From the NCBI GenBank assembly GCA_017625775.1, contig JAGAKE010000003.1:1-64000 (forward strand): a stretch of 64,000 nt of DNA, in the 5' to 3' direction. The DNA comes from Fibrobacteraceae bacterium (lineage in GTDB: Bacteria > Fibrobacterota > Fibrobacteria > Fibrobacterales > Fibrobacteraceae). The notes under the pieces were generated by a model. The model saw only the letters and a program-made list of their open reading frames with translations, was not told the DNA's origin and made no database searches. Of the stretch, positions 446 to 64,000 are shown one piece after another. The number at the start of each line of letters is the position of its first letter. Position 1 is the first letter of the stretch. The translations under genes and the position numbers were made by a program.

Positions 446-3400
446 ATGACAAATTTTGATTATTTAAAAGCGAATTCGAAATTTGACACGTTTGCAGACG
501 TGGCGATTTCGGCGGAGAAAATATTACATATCGACATAGATTCTTGCGTGCTGAATTGCCGCAGGGCGATGGAGTTCGCTATTAAATGGATGTATTCTGT
601 GGATTCTTCGTTAGAAAAACCATATCAGGATAATTTGCTTAGTTTGATGAGTACAGATGAGTTTCATAACCTTATTGAAATAAATTTATGGAAACGTCTG
701 GATTTAATACGAAAAATAGGTAATAGAGTAAATCATAATGTAAAAAAAGTCTCTCGAGATGAAGCTATACAGTGTTTAGAGAACCTTTTTATTTTTTTAG
801 ATTTTATTGCATATTGTTATGGCGATTCTTATCAAGAAGTGAAATTTGATGTTAGTCTTTTAGAAAAACAAGAATCGTTAGAAAATGTAAAACCGCCATC
901 AGAAAAAGAACTTGATTTAAATGATTTAATTGAAGAAAATAAAAACATAAAAGAAGAAATTACGGCAAGGCGTAAAGAGCAATATGAAACTTATGTTCCA
1001 AAGCCTATTAATTTGTCGGAATACAAAACCAGGAAAATTTACATTGATACGATGTTGATTGATGCTGGATGGAAAGAAGGTAAAAACTGGCTTAATGAAG
1101 TTGAAATTTTAGAAATGCCAAATAAATCAGGTATTGGCTATGCAGATTATGTTCTTTATGATGATTCTCACAAACCCTTGGCGGTGATAGAAGCTAAACG
1201 CACTTGTGTTGATGTGGCACAAGGGAGACAACAAGCAAAATTATATGCAGATTATTTAGAAAAGAAATACCATCGCCGACCAGTTGTATTTTTAACAAAT
1301 GGATTTGAAACCAGAATTATTGATGGCTGTTATCCAGAAAGAAATTGTGCAGCGATTTATTCAAAAAGTGATTTAGAAAAAATGTTTAATTTGCATGCTT
1401 TGCGACAAAATCTTTCGTATGTTTCGATTGATAAAAAAATTGCAGGGCGTTATTATCAAGAAGGCGCGATTAAAGCAGCATGCGATAGCTTTGACAAGAA
1501 AAATCGCAGGAAAGTTTTATTTGTTATGGCTACAGGTTCTGGAAAAACAAGAACCATAATAGCATTGTGTAAAGTTCTTTTAGATTATGGCTGGGTAAAA
1601 AATATTTTGTTCTTAGCTGATAGAAATTCTTTAGTAACTCAAGCAAAAAGGAATTTTGTAAATTTTTTACCTGATTTATCATGTTCAAATTTAGTTGAAG
1701 ATAAAGAAAATTATACAGCTCATTGTATTTTTTCAACATATAATACAATGATGAATTGTATTGATTCTGCAAAAAATGAGAATGACGAAAAGTTGTTTAC
1801 TTGTGGTCATTTTGATTTAGTAATTTGTGATGAAGCGCACCGTTCTATTTATAATAAATACAAGGATATTTTCAATTATTTTGATGCTCCTTTGGTTGGA
1901 TTGACTGCAACTCCTAAAGATGAAATAGATAAAAATACATATGAAATTTTTGAATTGGAAAATGGAGTGCCTACTTATGGTTATGAATTGGCTCAAGCAG
2001 TAAAAGATGGTTTCCTTGTTGATTTTGTATCTGTAGAAACAAAGCTTAAGTTTATTGAAGATGGCATTGTTTATGATGATTTGTCAGAAGAAGAAAAAGA
2101 AGAATATGAAAATAATTTTGCTCGTGATGGAGAATTACCTGAAAAAATAGAGTCGTCTGCTTTGAATGATTGGGTTTTTAATGAAAGTACAATAAAAGAA
2201 GTTTTGAATATTTTAATGACAAATGGAATAAAAATTGATTATGGGCAAAAAATAGGGAAGACAATTATTTTTGCAAAAAACCATCTTCATGCAGAAGCAA
2301 TTTTTAAAGTGTTTAATAAGAATTATCCGCATCTTGCCGATTATGCAAAAGTGATTGATAATAAAATAAAATATTCTCAAGACGCAATAGATGAATTTTC
2401 TGAAGCTGATAAATTACCGCAAATAGCTATTTCAGTCGATATGTTGGATACAGGGGTTGATGTACCTGAAGTTTTGAATCTTGTTTTCTTTAAAAAGGTG
2501 ATGAGCAAGGCAAAATTCTGGCAAATGATTGGGCGCGGAACGCGAACATGTGAAGGCTTGTTAGATGGGGAAGATAAGAATAAATTTTACATATTTGATT
2601 TTTGTGGAAATTTTGAATTTTTTAGAATGAGTAAGGGGAAAGCTTCGGCGACTACAATGTCGTTGTCTGAAGCTATTTTTAATTTGGAATTTCAAATGGC
2701 TTATAAGTTGCAAGATTTACAGTATCAAGAAGAGGAACTTATTGAATACAGAAAAAATCTTGTAAATGTAATGGTTGAAAAAGTCCAAGAATTGGATAGA
2801 AATAATTTTTCTATTCGACAGCATATCAAATATGTTGATACTTATTCTGTAAAAGAAAACTATCAAGCTTTAACTTATGAAAGCACATTAAATGTTAAAG
2901 AAGAGTTAGCTCCATATATATTACCAGATAATGATGATGTTAGTGCTTTGCGATTTGATGCTTTACTGTTTGGTTTAGAATTAGCTTGCCTTGTTCAGAA
3001 AAAATATGGAAAAGCGAAAAAGGATTTGTTGCGAATTGTTCGCAATATTAGCAGCACGGCTAATATTCCAGAAATACAGGTTCAATCAGAATTGATTAAT
3101 AAAATATTGCATACGGATTTTGTTGATAAAGCAGGAATTGCTGATTTTGAAACGATTCGGGAAAATTTGCGGAATTTGGTCAAATATATTGTTAATGAAA
3201 GAAAAATTTATGAGACAAATTTTGAAGAAGATATTTTATCAATGGAGTATCATGAAGCCGATCTTGAATCAGAAGAATTGAATAATTATAAAGCGAAAGC
3301 TGAATATTATGTGCGTAAAAATCAAGATCATCCTGTAATTGCAAAATTGAAAACCAATATTCCGTTAACGGCAAATGATGTTTTGAGTTTAGAGAATATT

Positions 3401-3742
3401 CTTTGGGGTGAACTAGGCTCAAAAAGAGAATACGAAGCAGAATATGGAACGAAGCCATTAGGAGAGTTTGTTAGAGAAATTGTTGGTTTAGATATGAATG
3501 CGGCAAAAACAGCTTTTTCAAAATTTTTAGATAATGCAAATTTAGATAGCCGACAAATTTATTTTATAAATCAGATTGTAGAATACATTGTGCAAAATGG
3601 GATGATGAAGGATTTTTCAGTTCTTCAAGATTCGCCTTTTACAGATAAAGGTAGTGTGGTTGATGTATTTAGTGATGATTTGAATTTATGGCTTGAAATA
3701 AAAAGCGTTATAGAAAAAATAAATGCCAATGCAGCGGCTTAA
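446..3742 (+). CDS. hsdR: Type I restriction enzyme R subunit (HsdR), with an N-terminal DUF4145-like domain
   Basis: This 1098-residue protein has the layout of an EcoEI/KpnAI-type HsdR: the ATP-driven translocase and nuclease of a type I restriction system. Residues 1-125 resemble DUF4145. A PD-(D/E)XK nuclease lies at about 232-252 (YADYVLYDD, then VIEAKRT). The SF2 helicase motor has Walker A ATGSGKT near 362, DEAH near 462, LTATP near 490 and the arginine-finger motif QMIGRGTRT near 693. The last 300 residues match the HsdR C-terminal region that binds the methylase. No HsdM or HsdS lies next to it. An HsdM begins at 62091, too far away to be the same operon; the partners may lie upstream of the window. 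Confidence 0.93.
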   Translation: MTNFDYLKANSKFDTFADVAISAEKILHIDIDSCVLNCRRAMEFAIKWMYSVDSSLEKPYQDNLLSLMSTDEFHNLIEINLWKRLDLIRKIGNRVNHNVKKVSRDEAIQCLENLFIFLDFIAYCYGDSYQEVKFDVSLLEKQESLENVKPPSEKELDLNDLIEENKNIKEEITARRKEQYETYVPKPINLSEYKTRKIYIDTMLIDAGWKEGKNWLNEVEILEMPNKSGIGYADYVLYDDSHKPLAVIEAKRTCVDVAQGRQQAKLYADYLEKKYHRRPVVFLTNGFETRIIDGCYPERNCAAIYSKSDLEKMFNLHALRQNLSYVSIDKKIAGRYYQEGAIKAACDSFDKKNRRKVLFVMATGSGKTRTIIALCKVLLDYGWVKNILFLADRNSLVTQAKRNFVNFLPDLSCSNLVEDKENYTAHCIFSTYNTMMNCIDSAKNENDEKLFTCGHFDLVICDEAHRSIYNKYKDIFNYFDAPLVGLTATPKDEIDKNTYEIFELENGVPTYGYELAQAVKDGFLVDFVSVETKLKFIEDGIVYDDLSEEEKEEYENNFARDGELPEKIESSALNDWVFNESTIKEVLNILMTNGIKIDYGQKIGKTIIFAKNHLHAEAIFKVFNKNYPHLADYAKVIDNKIKYSQDAIDEFSEADKLPQIAISVDMLDTGVDVPEVLNLVFFKKVMSKAKFWQMIGRGTRTCEGLLDGEDKNKFYIFDFCGNFEFFRMSKGKASATTMSLSEAIFNLEFQMAYKLQDLQYQEEELIEYRKNLVNVMVEKVQELDRNNFSIRQHIKYVDTYSVKENYQALTYESTLNVKEELAPYILPDNDDVSALRFDALLFGLELACLVQKKYGKAKKDLLRIVRNISSTANIPEIQVQSELINKILHTDFVDKAGIADFETIRENLRNLVKYIVNERKIYETNFEEDILSMEYHEADLESEELNNYKAKAEYYVRKNQDHPVIAKLKTNIPLTANDVLSLENILWGELGSKREYEAEYGTKPLGEFVREIVGLDMNAAKTAFSKFLDNANLDSRQIYFINQIVEYIVQNGMMKDFSVLQDSPFTDKGSVVDVFSDDLNLWLEIKSVIEKINANAAA

Positions 3743-3845: not shown

Positions 3846-4769
3846 TTAAAATTCGATTTCCTTTAAGTAGCGGGAAAGAGCGTCTTGCCAAGTGGGGAGT
3901 CTTGAAAAGCCTGCTTCTGAGAGTTTGGATTTGTCTAGCCGGCTGTTGAATGGGCGAGCAGCTTTGCTTATGCCGTATTCTGCGGTGGTTACAGGTAGCA
4001 CTTTGGTGGAAAGATTTGCTTGTTTGTAGATTTCTTTTGTGAAATCAAACCAACTGATGTAACCGCCTTCGTTTGTGGCATGATAGTAACCATATTTTTC
4101 GCTATTTGCCATTTCGACAAGAAGCTTTGCTAAGTCGCTTGTGTAAGTTGGCGTTCCGATTTGATCGTTTACCACGCGAACGGTGTCGTGCTTTTGGGCA
4201 ACTTGAAGCATGGTTTTAATAAAGTTTTTGCCGTTTTTCCCGAATACCCAGGCGATGCGGACAATGAAGAATTTTTCAAGAAGAGAACTTACGGCGAGTT
4301 CTCCGTCGAGTTTGCTTTGCCCGTAAACGTTTAATGGTTGGTAGTCTTTGCAATCGGGTTCCCAAGGAGTTTCTCCTTGTCCATTGAAAACGTAATCAGT
4401 GCTGATATAAATCATTTTGCAGTTGAGTTTTTTGCAAGCTTCGGCTATGTTTCTTGTGCCTTCGGCATTGATTTTATGGACTTTTTCTTGGTGTTCTGGT
4501 TCTTCGGCTAAATCTACAGCGGTCCAGGCGGCGCAATGAATAACCACACTTGGCTGTTCTTCGAATAAGATTTTTTCTACCGCGGTTTTATCTGTAATAT
4601 CCATTGAACGATAATGCATAGATTGAATCGCTTCGTGATCGTTAATGCCTGAATATTCTGGGGAAATATCACTTCCGACTGAGGAGATTCCATGGCGAAA
4701 TAATTCAATAATTAAATCATGACCTAATTGGCCGGCAACGCCTGTAACAAAAACTTTTTCCATGCTCAT
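3846..4769 (-). CDS. rfbD: dTDP-4-dehydrorhamnose reductase (RmlD-like)
   Basis: The 307-residue protein is an extended short-chain dehydrogenase that makes dTDP-L-rhamnose for cell-surface polysaccharides. A Rossmann nucleotide-binding loop (GVAGQLG) is at 10-16, STDYVF at 123-128, and the catalytic Tyr149/Lys153 pair lies in YGQSK. The length is normal for the family. Two in-frame ATGs (4769 and 4763) are possible starts and neither has a clear ribosome-binding site. It is the last gene of a minus-strand run, 17 bases after the small membrane protein. The other rhamnose genes are not in the window. Confidence 0.9.
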   Translation of the reverse strand: MSMEKVFVTGVAGQLGHDLIIELFRHGISSVGSDISPEYSGINDHEAIQSMHYRSMDITDKTAVEKILFEEQPSVVIHCAAWTAVDLAEEPEHQEKVHKINAEGTRNIAEACKKLNCKMIYISTDYVFNGQGETPWEPDCKDYQPLNVYGQSKLDGELAVSSLLEKFFIVRIAWVFGKNGKNFIKTMLQVAQKHDTVRVVNDQIGTPTYTSDLAKLLVEMANSEKYGYYHATNEGGYISWFDFTKEIYKQANLSTKVLPVTTAEYGISKAARPFNSRLDKSKLSEAGFSRLPTWQDALSRYLKEIEF

Positions 4770-55577: not shown

Positions 55578-55724
55578 ATGTCAAACAAAAAAATGTCCCA
55601 GGCTGATTTGAATCATCATGCAGATCAGATGAACCCTAATAACTATCAATACAAAGCACGCATGGATAATAGGTCTAATCAGCTAAATCCGAATAATCCT
55701 CTTTATCAGGGTGAAAAGAAATAA
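55578..55724 (+). CDS. NPNN-repeat small protein (48 residues)
   Basis: ATG 55578 has AGGAG 6 bases upstream. The 48 residues contain a repeated motif, ADQMNPNNYQY and SNQLNPNNPLY, in a Lys/Asn-rich chain without signal peptide. Tiny proteins with (N/D)Q-x-NPNN-x-x-Y repeats are found in many mobile islands, function unknown. It opens the viperin neighbourhood and is followed by its own terminator. Confidence 0.75.
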   Translation: MSNKKMSQADLNHHADQMNPNNYQYKARMDNRSNQLNPNNPLYQGEKK

Positions 55725-55985: not shown

Positions 55986-56343
55986 ATGAAATCAACAACT
56001 TGTTTTTCAAAAAAAAACTAATGAAGCGCTTTCTGTATATGAAACAGAAGCAGAGGCTCAACAATCAGCCAATTATCAACGCTATGAAAATGGGCGTTCA
56101 CTTTATCCTTACCATTGTGAGCGTTGTGGCTTATGGCACCTAGCCCCAACAGAAACGCGAATCAACGTTTTACATAATGCTTGCAGTTGCCTAGATAGTA
56201 GTGGAAAGCATAAAGACCTTTATCTTTTTCGTGAAGATGCCGAAAAAGCAAAATCTAAGTGTGAAAGAGAAAGAGGGTATAGACTTTATATCTACGAATG
56301 CCCAAGAAAAAACGGTTTTCACCTAACAAAAAGTCAATGCTAA
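55986..56343 (+). pseudogene. Frameshifted zinc-ribbon protein in the viperin locus
   Basis: ATG 55986 reads MKSTTCFSKKN* and stops at 56021. Skipping one A of the nine-A run (56009-56017) joins it to a long open frame: TNEALSVYETEAEAQQSANY, then YPYHCERCGLWHLAPTE, and later LYIYECPRKNGFHLTK before TAA 56341. The two C-x-x-C/H-type ribbons suggest zinc or nucleic-acid binding. It may be a decayed gene or a homopolymer switch. Confidence 0.72.
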
Positions 56344-56413: not shown

Positions 56414-57445
56414 ATGATACCTTATTTGAGTCCAGCTAAAACAAAAGCAAAATCAGAAATTTGCATTAATTGGCATGTTACAGAATCTTGTAATTATCAT
56501 TGCAAATTCTGCTTTTCAAAATGGAATAAACGAAAAGAAGTTTGGACTGATTTGCTAGAAATAAAAAAAGTTCTGTCCAATATTTCAGAACACTTTAAAA
56601 CTGTACATTCTATTCGATTAAATATTGTTGGTGGCGAGCCTTGTATGTATCCAGATCGATTGTGGAATATAATACAAGAAGCAACATGGCGCGGAATGAA
56701 AAGTTCCATTATTACTAATGGGTATTACTTAGAAAATATTCGTCCTTTTGCTCATTCGGTTTCACAAGTAGGAATTTCAATTGATTCCTTTGAACATGAA
56801 ACCAATATAAAAGAAGGTCGAGAATGTAATGGAAAAACAATTTCTTTTGAAAATCTTCGTCAAAAAATTGCAGAGCTTCGTCAAATAAATCCAAATATCA
56901 AAATTAAAATAAACTCAGTTGTGAATGAATGGAATTATAATGAGGTCCTTGCAGATAAATTAGCGGAATTAAATATTGATAAATGGAAAATATTGTGTCA
57001 AAAACCATTTGGTGAAAACAAGGGAATAGCTCCATATCAATTCTATACTTTTTTGAAAAATAATTGGTATGCTTCAAAGAAACCAAAATCCATTTTTATT
57101 GAAAATAAAGAAGCAATGTTTGATAGTTATTTAATGATTTCTCCAGACGGTTGTTTTTTTCAAACAGATAATTCTGGATATAAATATAGTCGCCCTTTAA
57201 CAGAGGTAATGGTTGAAGATGCTTTAAAAGAAATTGAATTTGATTATAGTAAATATTTAGATCGTTATCGTTTAGTTAAAAAATATGAAGAGTGGCAAAT
57301 TCTTGAATTTGGAGATTTTACACACGACGATTCAAACAAAATTCCTGTTTTAACAAAACGAGCAATATGTGAAATGGAAAATTTTTTCAAATTACCATCT
57401 TCATTTTCTGATGAAATGGAATTTTTAGAAAAAGAATCGCTATAA
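56414..57445 (+). CDS. Prokaryotic viperin (radical-SAM antiviral nucleotide dehydratase)
   Basis: The 343-residue enzyme starts at ATG 56414 with AAAGGAG 6 bases upstream; the longer frame from 56357 is rejected. The radical-SAM cluster is Cys26, Cys30 and Cys33 in CNYHCKFC. GGEP follows at 73-76. Features shared with human viperin include NWHVTESCNY, SIDSFEHETN near 122, KIKINSVVNEWN near 163-174, KWKILCQ and DSYLMI. Viperins convert a ribonucleoside triphosphate to a 3'-deoxy-3',4'-didehydro form that terminates viral RNA synthesis. The nucleotide used here cannot be told from sequence. Confidence 0.92.
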   Translation: MIPYLSPAKTKAKSEICINWHVTESCNYHCKFCFSKWNKRKEVWTDLLEIKKVLSNISEHFKTVHSIRLNIVGGEPCMYPDRLWNIIQEATWRGMKSSIITNGYYLENIRPFAHSVSQVGISIDSFEHETNIKEGRECNGKTISFENLRQKIAELRQINPNIKIKINSVVNEWNYNEVLADKLAELNIDKWKILCQKPFGENKGIAPYQFYTFLKNNWYASKKPKSIFIENKEAMFDSYLMISPDGCFFQTDNSGYKYSRPLTEVMVEDALKEIEFDYSKYLDRYRLVKKYEEWQILEFGDFTHDDSNKIPVLTKRAICEMENFFKLPSSFSDEMEFLEKESL

Positions 57446-57463: not shown

Positions 57464-57721
57464 ATGTATCATATATCTAACGACAAAAACATTCGCGAAT
57501 TTGTTCGAAATATTTTGCGAACAAAAAAATGGGAACCGGTTCGTCAAGGAAAGCATCTAATCATTCGCCACCTTGAGAATAATGGCATAGGAAACATCAC
57601 TGTTCCTAGCACGCCAAGTTGTCCTCATACCTTTGAGAATTTTAAGAGAGATTACTATCGAAGATTGAGAGAATATTTTATTCGTGTAGGTTTAATACTC
57701 CCGTCAGAACAAACAAATTAA
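57464..57721 (+). CDS. HicA-like small protein next to viperin
   Basis: The 85-residue protein has the HicA/dsRBD-like pattern: basic N-terminal helix, KHLIIRH, then ITVPSTPSC and a C-terminal basic helix (FKRDYYRRLRE). The catalytic-type His of HicA would be in GKHLI. PSTPS is characteristic of a subgroup. It starts 18 bases after the viperin stop. It may be a toxin or an RNA-binding partner; a HicB antitoxin is not seen. Confidence 0.68.
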   Translation: MYHISNDKNIREFVRNILRTKKWEPVRQGKHLIIRHLENNGIGNITVPSTPSCPHTFENFKRDYYRRLREYFIRVGLILPSEQTN

Positions 57722-57748: not shown

Positions 57749-57859
57749 ATGTCAAAGCACAACGGACAACCGCCAATCAATCCACGTGGAGCAGGTTGGT
57801 CGTCACCTACTGGAAATCCATCTGGTGGTGGGCGTGGCGGCAATCCGCCAAGAAAGTAA
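57749..57859 (+). CDS. Gly/Pro-rich small protein (36 residues)
   Basis: ATG 57749 follows a near-perfect AAGGAGG (57734-57740) at 8 bases, so translation is very likely. The 36 residues (SKHNGQPPINPRGAGWSSP then a Gly-rich NPPRK end) are disordered and basic. It is the last gene of the viperin locus, followed by a strong terminator. Unknown function; its short length and strong ribosome-binding site suggest a peptide made in large amounts. Confidence 0.72.
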   Translation: MSKHNGQPPINPRGAGWSSPTGNPSGGGRGGNPPRK

Positions 57860-57895
57860 GTTTTCGTTGTTTTCAGGGAGAAGTAATGAAAAGTG

Positions 57896-57930
57896 CTATC
57901 GGGAGAGTAATTCTCCCGATAGTGTCTTTT
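57896..57930 (+). terminator. Terminator of the viperin locus
   Basis: CTATCGGGAGA (57896-57906) pairs perfectly with TCTCCCGATAG (57912-57922), followed by TGTCTTTTT. It closes the locus. Confidence 0.88.
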
Positions 57931-57953
57931 TGAAGGTGATGGATATAAAAAAA

Positions 57954-62090: not shown

Positions 62091-64000
62091 ATGGCCAAGA
62101 ATAAGGTTATTGACGCCGCTTATGACGATTCCCCTGTAGATGTTTCCACCGAGGTAAACTTCATCTGGAGTATCGCAAATACCCTCCGTGGGCCGTATCA
62201 GAGCGATAAGTACAAAGACGTGATTATCCCGATGGTGATTATTCGTAGATTCGAATGCGCTTTGGCAGCAACCAAGGAAAAGGTTGTCAAGCAGTTCAAG
62301 CAGAACAAGAACTACCCCTACAAGGCGATGTGCAAGATTTCTGGTTTCCAGTTCTACAACACGAGCGAATTTGACCTGGCAGAGCTGTTGAATGATTCCG
62401 AGAACATTGCCTCCAACTTCAAGAGTTATCTGAACGCATTCTCCCCGAATGTGCAAGAAATCATCATGAGTAATTCTGCTGGTCTTGACTTCGAGAAGCA
62501 GATAGACAAGATGGACAAGCACAACCGTCTATTTGGAATCGTCAAGAAATTCTCCGAGCTGGATTTGAACCCCAAGACAATCGACAATATCAAGATGGGA
62601 TATATTTTTGAAGACCTGATTCGTAGATTCTCGGAAAATGCTGAAGCTGGCGACCACTACACGGGTCGTGATATCATCAAGACCATGGTGAATATCCTTT
62701 TGGCAGAAGGTTGTGACGATATTTTCGAGGAAGGCAAGGTCATTACCGCCTGTGACCAGGCCTGCGGTACGGGCGGTATGATGTCCACCACAGAGAATTT
62801 TATCAAGCGTTTCAACCCGTCTGCAAACATTCGTCTCTTTGGCCAGGAAGTAAACCCTGAATCTTACGCAATTTGTCTTGCAGAAATGCTCATCAAGGGG
62901 CAGAATGCGGAGAACATTCGTTTGCAGGACACCATGAAGGCAGATTGCTTTCCTGATACCAAGATGCGTTTTATGGTCGAGAATCCTCCCTTTGGTCAGC
63001 CATGGGGCGGTAAGGATGCCGCTGAAGGTGTGGAAGAGGCTGTAAACATAGAAAAGAATAGGACCAACAGCCGTTGGGGTTCTGGCTATTTGCCTGGTAC
63101 AGGAGATATGCAGTTATTGTTTATCCAGTCGGCGGTTGACAAGATGGACGACCTTTGTGGGCGCGCGGCCATTATCGAGAACGGTTCCCCGTTGTTTACG
63201 GGAGGAACATCCAGTGGTGAATCCCAGATTAGGCGTTGGTTGCTTGAAAAGGACTTGATTGAGGCCATCATCGCATTGCCAACAGACCTCTTCTATAACA
63301 CGGGCATTGCCACTTACATTTGGGTCCTTTCCAAAAACAAGAGCAAGAAGCGTATTGGTAAAGTCCAACTGATTGATGCCAGTGGAATTTGTCATCCTTT
63401 GCGTAAGAGCCTTGGCAAGAAGCGAAATGAGATTACCCCCGAAGACCGCAAGAAGATTACAGAACTTTACGCAAACTTCGAGGAAAATGAACTTTGCCAG
63501 ATTTATGACAACGAAGAGTTCATGTATAGGGAATATACTGTAAAACAACCATTGCAGCGTAGCTACGCCATCAATGATGAACGCATCGAGAACCTTGTTG
63601 TATCTGGCGCCTTGAGTTCCGTTTATGACGAAGCGAAGGTCAATGAACTGGAAAATGCCGAAGAGGAACTGTCTGCAAAGGACGAGAAGACCCTTGAAAA
63701 ACTGAAAGCTGGCAAACCTATTTATGACTCCATTTTCGAAACTCTGAAAGCAAACAAGAGCAAGAAAAAGTACATGGAACCAAAGTCCTTTACTGCCGTG
63801 ATTGAAGAATTGTTCCCGAATTTGGATAAGAAACTACAGGGTAAGATTGTGGATGGGCTTTCCATGATGGATAAGGATGCCGAAATCCAGAAGGACAAGA
63901 AGGGCAACGTCCTGTGGGATAATGATACCAAGGACACGGAAATAGTCAAGTATTCCGAGAAAATTGAAGACTACATGGCAAGGGAAGTCTTGCCCCATAT
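62091..64000 (+). CDS. hsdM: Type I DNA methyltransferase HsdM (3' end outside the window)
   Basis: ATG 62091 opens a frame that stays open to the edge (636 codons). The N-terminal helical domain (FIWSIANTLRGPY) is followed by the N6-adenine methylase core: motif I CDQACGTGGM (Asp222; a Gln replaces the usual Pro) and motif IV NPPFG at 298-302. Codon use is more GC-rich than in the preceding operon. An hsdR gene lies 58 kb to the left, so this HsdM probably belongs to a separate type I system whose HsdS and HsdR lie beyond 64000. Confidence 0.93.
   Translation, partial: MAKNKVIDAAYDDSPVDVSTEVNFIWSIANTLRGPYQSDKYKDVIIPMVIIRRFECALAATKEKVVKQFKQNKNYPYKAMCKISGFQFYNTSEFDLAELLNDSENIASNFKSYLNAFSPNVQEIIMSNSAGLDFEKQIDKMDKHNRLFGIVKKFSELDLNPKTIDNIKMGYIFEDLIRRFSENAEAGDHYTGRDIIKTMVNILLAEGCDDIFEEGKVITACDQACGTGGMMSTTENFIKRFNPSANIRLFGQEVNPESYAICLAEMLIKGQNAENIRLQDTMKADCFPDTKMRFMVENPPFGQPWGGKDAAEGVEEAVNIEKNRTNSRWGSGYLPGTGDMQLLFIQSAVDKMDDLCGRAAIIENGSPLFTGGTSSGESQIRRWLLEKDLIEAIIALPTDLFYNTGIATYIWVLSKNKSKKRIGKVQLIDASGICHPLRKSLGKKRNEITPEDRKKITELYANFEENELCQIYDNEEFMYREYTVKQPLQRSYAINDERIENLVVSGALSSVYDEAKVNELENAEEELSAKDEKTLEKLKAGKPIYDSIFETLKANKSKKKYMEPKSFTAVIEELFPNLDKKLQGKIVDGLSMMDKDAEIQKDKKGNVLWDNDTKDTEIVKYSEKIEDYMAREVLPH

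Follow-up and report, generated by a model that had tools for sequence, protein, structure and literature searches.

A prokaryotic viperin heads a compact operon that includes a HicA-like gene in a Fibrobacteraceae bacterium

Prokaryotic viperins (pVips) were reportedly described by Bernheim et al. in 2021. The enzymes of the viperin family cleave S-adenosylmethionine (SAM) and abstract the 4' hydrogen of a nucleotide, which leads to ddhNTPs that terminate phage RNA synthesis (PMC10732462). Loci in which a hicA gene lies upstream or downstream of pVip were grouped as classes 9 and 10 by Gerdes 2024 (PMC10865869), where a cooperation of HicA and viperin was also suggested. Further, Fibrobacter sp. 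UWT3 has a viperin which, when tried in plants, interfered with tobacco mosaic virus (PMC11185175). Here, we describe a viperin locus on a stretch of 64,000 nucleotides (the window; contig JAGAKE010000003.1) from a Fibrobacteraceae bacterium whose genome is available as an incomplete assembly (71%).

The gene at 56414..57445 (+) encodes a protein of 343 amino acids which is assigned to the prokaryotic viperins (pVip/SAND), radical-SAM nucleotide dehydratases, by family models, structure matches, phylogeny and conserved residues. The reading frame is unbroken from an ATG at 56414, which is preceded by an AAGGAG ribosome site at a distance of ~10 nt; an alternative TTG start, giving a protein of 362 amino acids, is less likely. 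The GC content of the gene is 0.29 and that of the whole window 0.372. The NCBIfam equivalog model for prokaryotic viperins, NF038283, matched with 276.3 bits (cut-off 180; E 2.3e-82), and the best PADLOC model was pVip ("viperins not associated with kinases") with 274 bits (E 3.1e-82). Mouse viperin matched by sequence alone with an E-value of ~4e-18. The features named in the original prediction of a prokaryotic viperin are indeed present, i.e. the CxxxCxxC cluster motif (C26-x3-C30-x2-C33) and the blocks SIDSFEHETN (residues 122-131) and KIKINSVVNEW (163-173), and the family match lies far beyond chance.

Several other defence-type genes are encoded in the window. HsdR, a type I restriction subunit that has DUF4145 as its N-terminal domain, is encoded near the left end (446-3739), type II restriction-modification genes at about 24-35 kb and HipBA at 49.8-51.4 kb; two PDC-S01 ATPases flank the pVip locus and HsdM (62091-63998) runs off the right end. 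The natural reading is a defence island with acquired genes. In a comparison with G001, a genome of the same genus, synteny holds to ~47.7 kb, but the G001 contig then ends within a HipA-like match and, therefore, the borders of the island are not fixed by this comparison. Upstream of pVip, a small zinc-ribbon-like gene with a C..CG.WHL motif (55987..56343, +) has a frame that is interrupted close to its beginning, in a run of A at about 56010, by decay to a pseudogene, a programmed shift or an assembly error; intact relatives of ~119 amino acids (L059 2883-3242, L048 13143-13502) are found near HicA-like or pVip genes. A 48-residue ORF at 55578-55724 (MSNKKMSQADLNHHADQMNPNNYQYKARMDNRSNQLNPNNPLYQGEKK) resembles at its end a 23-residue ORF upstream of the hicA-pVip pair in L054.

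The operon itself is compact: pVip is followed by a HicA-like gene, a gene for a protein of 36 residues and a strong terminator. The HicA-like gene (57464..57721, +; 85 amino acids) begins 18 nt behind pVip on the same strand, and the intrinsic terminator (57893..57931, +) has a stem of 15 pairs and a T-rich tail (region fold -30.5 kcal/mol, z -6.9). The assignment as HicA-like is based on the PADLOC HicA-like model (E 4.7e-10), aligned relatives and the predicted fold; no match was found in Pfam or NCBIfam. Like canonical HicA toxins (HicAB, PDB 6g26), the protein is predicted to have the element order helix-three strands-helix, and it has a conserved histidine, His31 in a KH pair, which is invariant (13 of 13 aligned relatives). 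Its two best PDB fold matches were the HicA chains of 6g26, albeit weak (E 0.2-0.3; target TM 0.58). Unlike canonical HicA, it carries a C-terminal TPSDxRxxxNFxRDY motif and gives no match with the Pfam HicA model, which reached 15.7 bits (PF07927, cut-off 27) with a relative from L117. Also unlike canonical HicAB, there is no HicB antitoxin gene beside it. A nucleotide kinase adjoining or fused to the window pVip was not found with Pfam and PADLOC.

The third gene (57749..57859, +) begins 27 nt past hicA behind a AAGGAGGT ribosome site and encodes a Gly/Pro-rich protein of 36 amino acids (MSKHNGQPPINPRGAGWSSPTGNPSGGGRGGNPPRK), which belongs to no family in Pfam or PHROGs. Relatives were found at 20 places in 17 of 168 genomes of the phylum, including a second copy on the same contig, 21 kb away, and nine of these 20 places adjoin a HicA-like gene. 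Synonymous change (pS 0.25-0.81) by far exceeded non-synonymous change (pN 0.01-0.15), as expected under strong purifying selection; in one example, the values were 8.0 per 28 and 2.0 per 80 sites, respectively. This pattern and the AAGGAGGT ribosome site ahead of nearly all copies show that the 36-residue gene encodes a real protein. Members of the family (36-40 amino acids; window 57749-57859, L211, L213-L230) end several different operons; about half stand beside HicA-like genes and the others follow a winged-helix protein or a protein of 430 amino acids.

Viperins are patchy in the phylum: a viperin over the cut-off was found in 13 of 168 genomes, whereas both other genomes of the window genus lack one. 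The partner genes vary. A HicA-like gene lies upstream of the viperin in the relatives L046, L051, L052 and L054, a kinase is the partner in L047, L048 and L049 and a RelE/ParE-like gene in L055 and L057; no partner gene was recognised for the remaining relatives. Two viral contigs, of which one has adjacent integrase genes, and a conjugative Sulfitobacter plasmid also show the order pVip-then-hicA seen in the window. On the plasmid (L198, NZ_CP025811.1), an unannotated HicA-like gene (4373-4594) stands straight after the viperin. On the three viral contigs L115, L116 and L117, the viperin is surrounded by phage structural genes or adjoins integrases, and in two of the three cases it is followed by a HicA-like gene; these viperins are phage- or prophage-borne. 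A search of phage records gave no match.

The HicA-like family was present at 35 places in 31 of the 168 genomes, beside many different genes. We rejected a role of the family as a partner dedicated to viperin, since most of these places have other neighbours. Further, its members lie just upstream of a B12-type radical-SAM gene of ~420 codons at nine loci (L058, L059, L062, L095, L096, L097, L099, L101, L105); two of these genes were tested and matched the PADLOC candidate defence model PDC-M51A with 226-230 bits. No relevant literature was found under the PADLOC names VakA and PDC-M51. In L060 (4277-8693) and L063, a HicA-like gene is found in a cluster with a PapB-like radical-SAM gene, an AAA_17 kinase-HAD fusion, a phosphoribosyltransferase and the small gene, which is a candidate nucleotide-based defence system. 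Three genomes encode intact viperin-like proteins of 299 amino acids that lack both CxxxCxxC and GGEP (L095 6296-7195, L097 5075-5974, L101 5090-5989). They are 86-100% identical to each other, their sole NCBIfam match is NF038283 with 47-54 bits, under the cut-off, and their nearest relatives are HicA-linked pVips. Their gene always sits between a HicA-like gene and the B12-type radical-SAM gene, and one of the three genomes, G099, has a normal viperin elsewhere; the protein without cluster motif is possibly a pseudo-enzyme.

Since the HicA-like family stands beside so many unrelated genes, its link to viperin could reflect general island traffic, with both genes adjacent simply because the same variable islands often carry them, and without joint action. 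HicA-free viperins, which have a kinase or RelE/ParE-like gene in place of hicA, are common, and this fits the explanation as well. However, in five loci of the family, and in three that are carried by mobile elements of other bacteria, HicA-like genes directly adjoin viperins on the same strand and are separated from them by tens of bases. At 14 of the 35 places, a viperin or a B12-type radical-SAM gene was close by on the same strand, whereas a radical-SAM neighbour would be expected at roughly 5% of them, as estimated from 14-38 radical-SAM matches per genome concerned; the resulting P of ~5e-10 presupposes independent places, which these are not. Besides, the phylogenies conflict. In the tree of 37 HicA-like proteins, the window copy falls into a starred clade of nine rows. 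None of the other members of this clade adjoins pVip, and several of them are followed by the 36-residue gene, whereas the window pVip groups with pVips that carry other HicA-like lineages. The HicA-like tree needs five changes of the pVip label, although some rows are long-branched. The disagreement of the two trees indicates that the viperin-HicA pairing arose several times. We therefore regard mere co-transport as unlikely, while giving it more weight than any other alternative considered here.

A second alternative is that the window pVip has lost or altered its activity, as a decaying copy or by a changed nucleotide preference. We compared the protein with 27 other viperins, a column being taken as strongly conserved if kept in >=85% of them. 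The window pVip keeps 41 of 42 such columns, including every fully invariant one; besides the cluster cysteines and GGEP (residues 73-76), the viperin-specific residues N19, H21, S122, R136, K165, N167, K192, E230, Y239 and R284 are all retained. The lone miss is R247C, at a position that is Arg in 24 of the 27 other viperins, mouse included, and a second arginine is replaced in R195C, where close relatives have ILRQ and the window protein ILCQ. Judged from the alignment, either exchange could change the activity. The fairly long end branch of the window pVip, the broken frame of the neighbouring gene and the existence of intact viperin-like proteins without cluster cysteines in relatives point in the same direction. 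Against this stand the full-length frame, the complete set of invariant columns, with the cluster cysteines, K165, N167 and K192 among them, and an intact operon that has its ribosome sites and its terminator, so that a lost or altered activity appears improbable.

Phylogeny and fold agree with the family models. The tree, with the radical-SAM domains of ten non-viperin proteins as outgroup, separated these from 25 viperins (window and 24 others) on a branch of 91/96 that was not starred; the original prediction had named a placement among non-viperin radical-SAM families as evidence against it, but the protein grouped with viperins, within a starred clade of seven rows made up of viperins of its own bacterial family. 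A profile of the pVip family searched against PDB sequences had viperins as its top nine matches (E 1e-53 to 1e-56), and all solved structures below E 1e-20 were viperin or viperin-like enzymes. The AlphaFold model (pLDDT 74, pTM 0.74; seven sequences) matched viperin chains only among its 30 best PDB fold matches (target TM 0.74-0.81), the first being mouse viperin with CTP and SAH, and MoaA and other radical-SAM folds came far below, with E-values worse by eight orders of magnitude. That 56414-57445 encodes a non-viperin radical-SAM enzyme, MoaA-like or a peptide maturase, which has the core motif alone in common with viperins, is hardly credible and was rejected: Pfam gave only the generic Radical_SAM domain and the MoaA and maturase models matched weakly (50-62 bits, cut-offs 284-400), while NF038283 exceeded its cut-off by far and the viperin-specific residues, the tree and the fold side with the viperins.

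In sum, we read the locus as a horizontally shuffled operon with a prokaryotic viperin as first gene and a presumed anti-phage effect, with a probability of about 0.85. By analogy to the family, a [4Fe-4S] cluster bound to C26, C30 and C33 would cleave SAM, and the 5'-deoxyadenosyl radical would abstract hydrogen from the 4' position of a ribonucleoside triphosphate. Loss of the 3'-OH would then give a 3'-deoxy-3',4'-didehydro nucleotide that halts phage RNA synthesis. The HicA-like protein, which would be made from the same transcript, is probably an RNA-targeting arm that cleaves or binds RNA, and the 36-residue protein is most likely a regulator or neutraliser of the HicA-like protein. A more far-reaching proposal, a three-gene viperin module with the HicA-like RNase as conditional second effector and the 36-residue protein as a new type of tiny antitoxin, in which a HicA-small protein cassette was repeatedly plugged into radical-SAM defence operons (viperin, the B12-type PDC-M51A and the cluster-less viperin-like protein), is speculative and probably does not hold in full.

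Compared with known systems, the window pVip has the family score, the cluster motif, the conserved residues, the fold and the defence context in common with other prokaryotic viperins (NF038283), from which it differs by R247C and a C-terminal extension of ~55 amino acids past the family model. With mouse viperin RSAD2 (PDB 5vsl, 6q2p) it shares the fold over ~289 columns (target TM 0.77) and all catalytic motifs, at 26% identity; it lacks the ER helix and has no equivalent of the C-terminal end of the mouse enzyme. The Fibrobacter sp. UWT3 viperin (PMC11185175) probably comes from the same bacterial family. As in class 10 loci (PMC10865869), hicA lies directly downstream of pVip, but unlike these, the window has the conserved 36-residue gene after hicA, and its HicA-like lineage differs from those adjoining sister pVips. 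Since a Fibrobacter viperin (PMC11185175) and both hicA-pVip arrangements (PMC10865869) have been published, the locus is an example of already known kinds, and the claim that it is worth describing for its lineage and neighbourhood is weaker than originally put, while its identity as a viperin stands. For a phylum in which viperins are patchy, it provides a clear case in an intact operon, and it is a clean three-gene unit for asking whether HicA-like genes aid viperin; because the pairing arose several times, the cooperation suggested by Gerdes (2024) becomes more testable. The locus is thus a good, mostly ordinary new example in which neither the enzyme nor its pairing with HicA is of a new kind; less expected are the repeated pairing, the HicA-like family beside a B12-type radical-SAM candidate defence gene, the viperin-like protein without cluster cysteines in three relatives and the strong purifying selection on the 36-residue gene.
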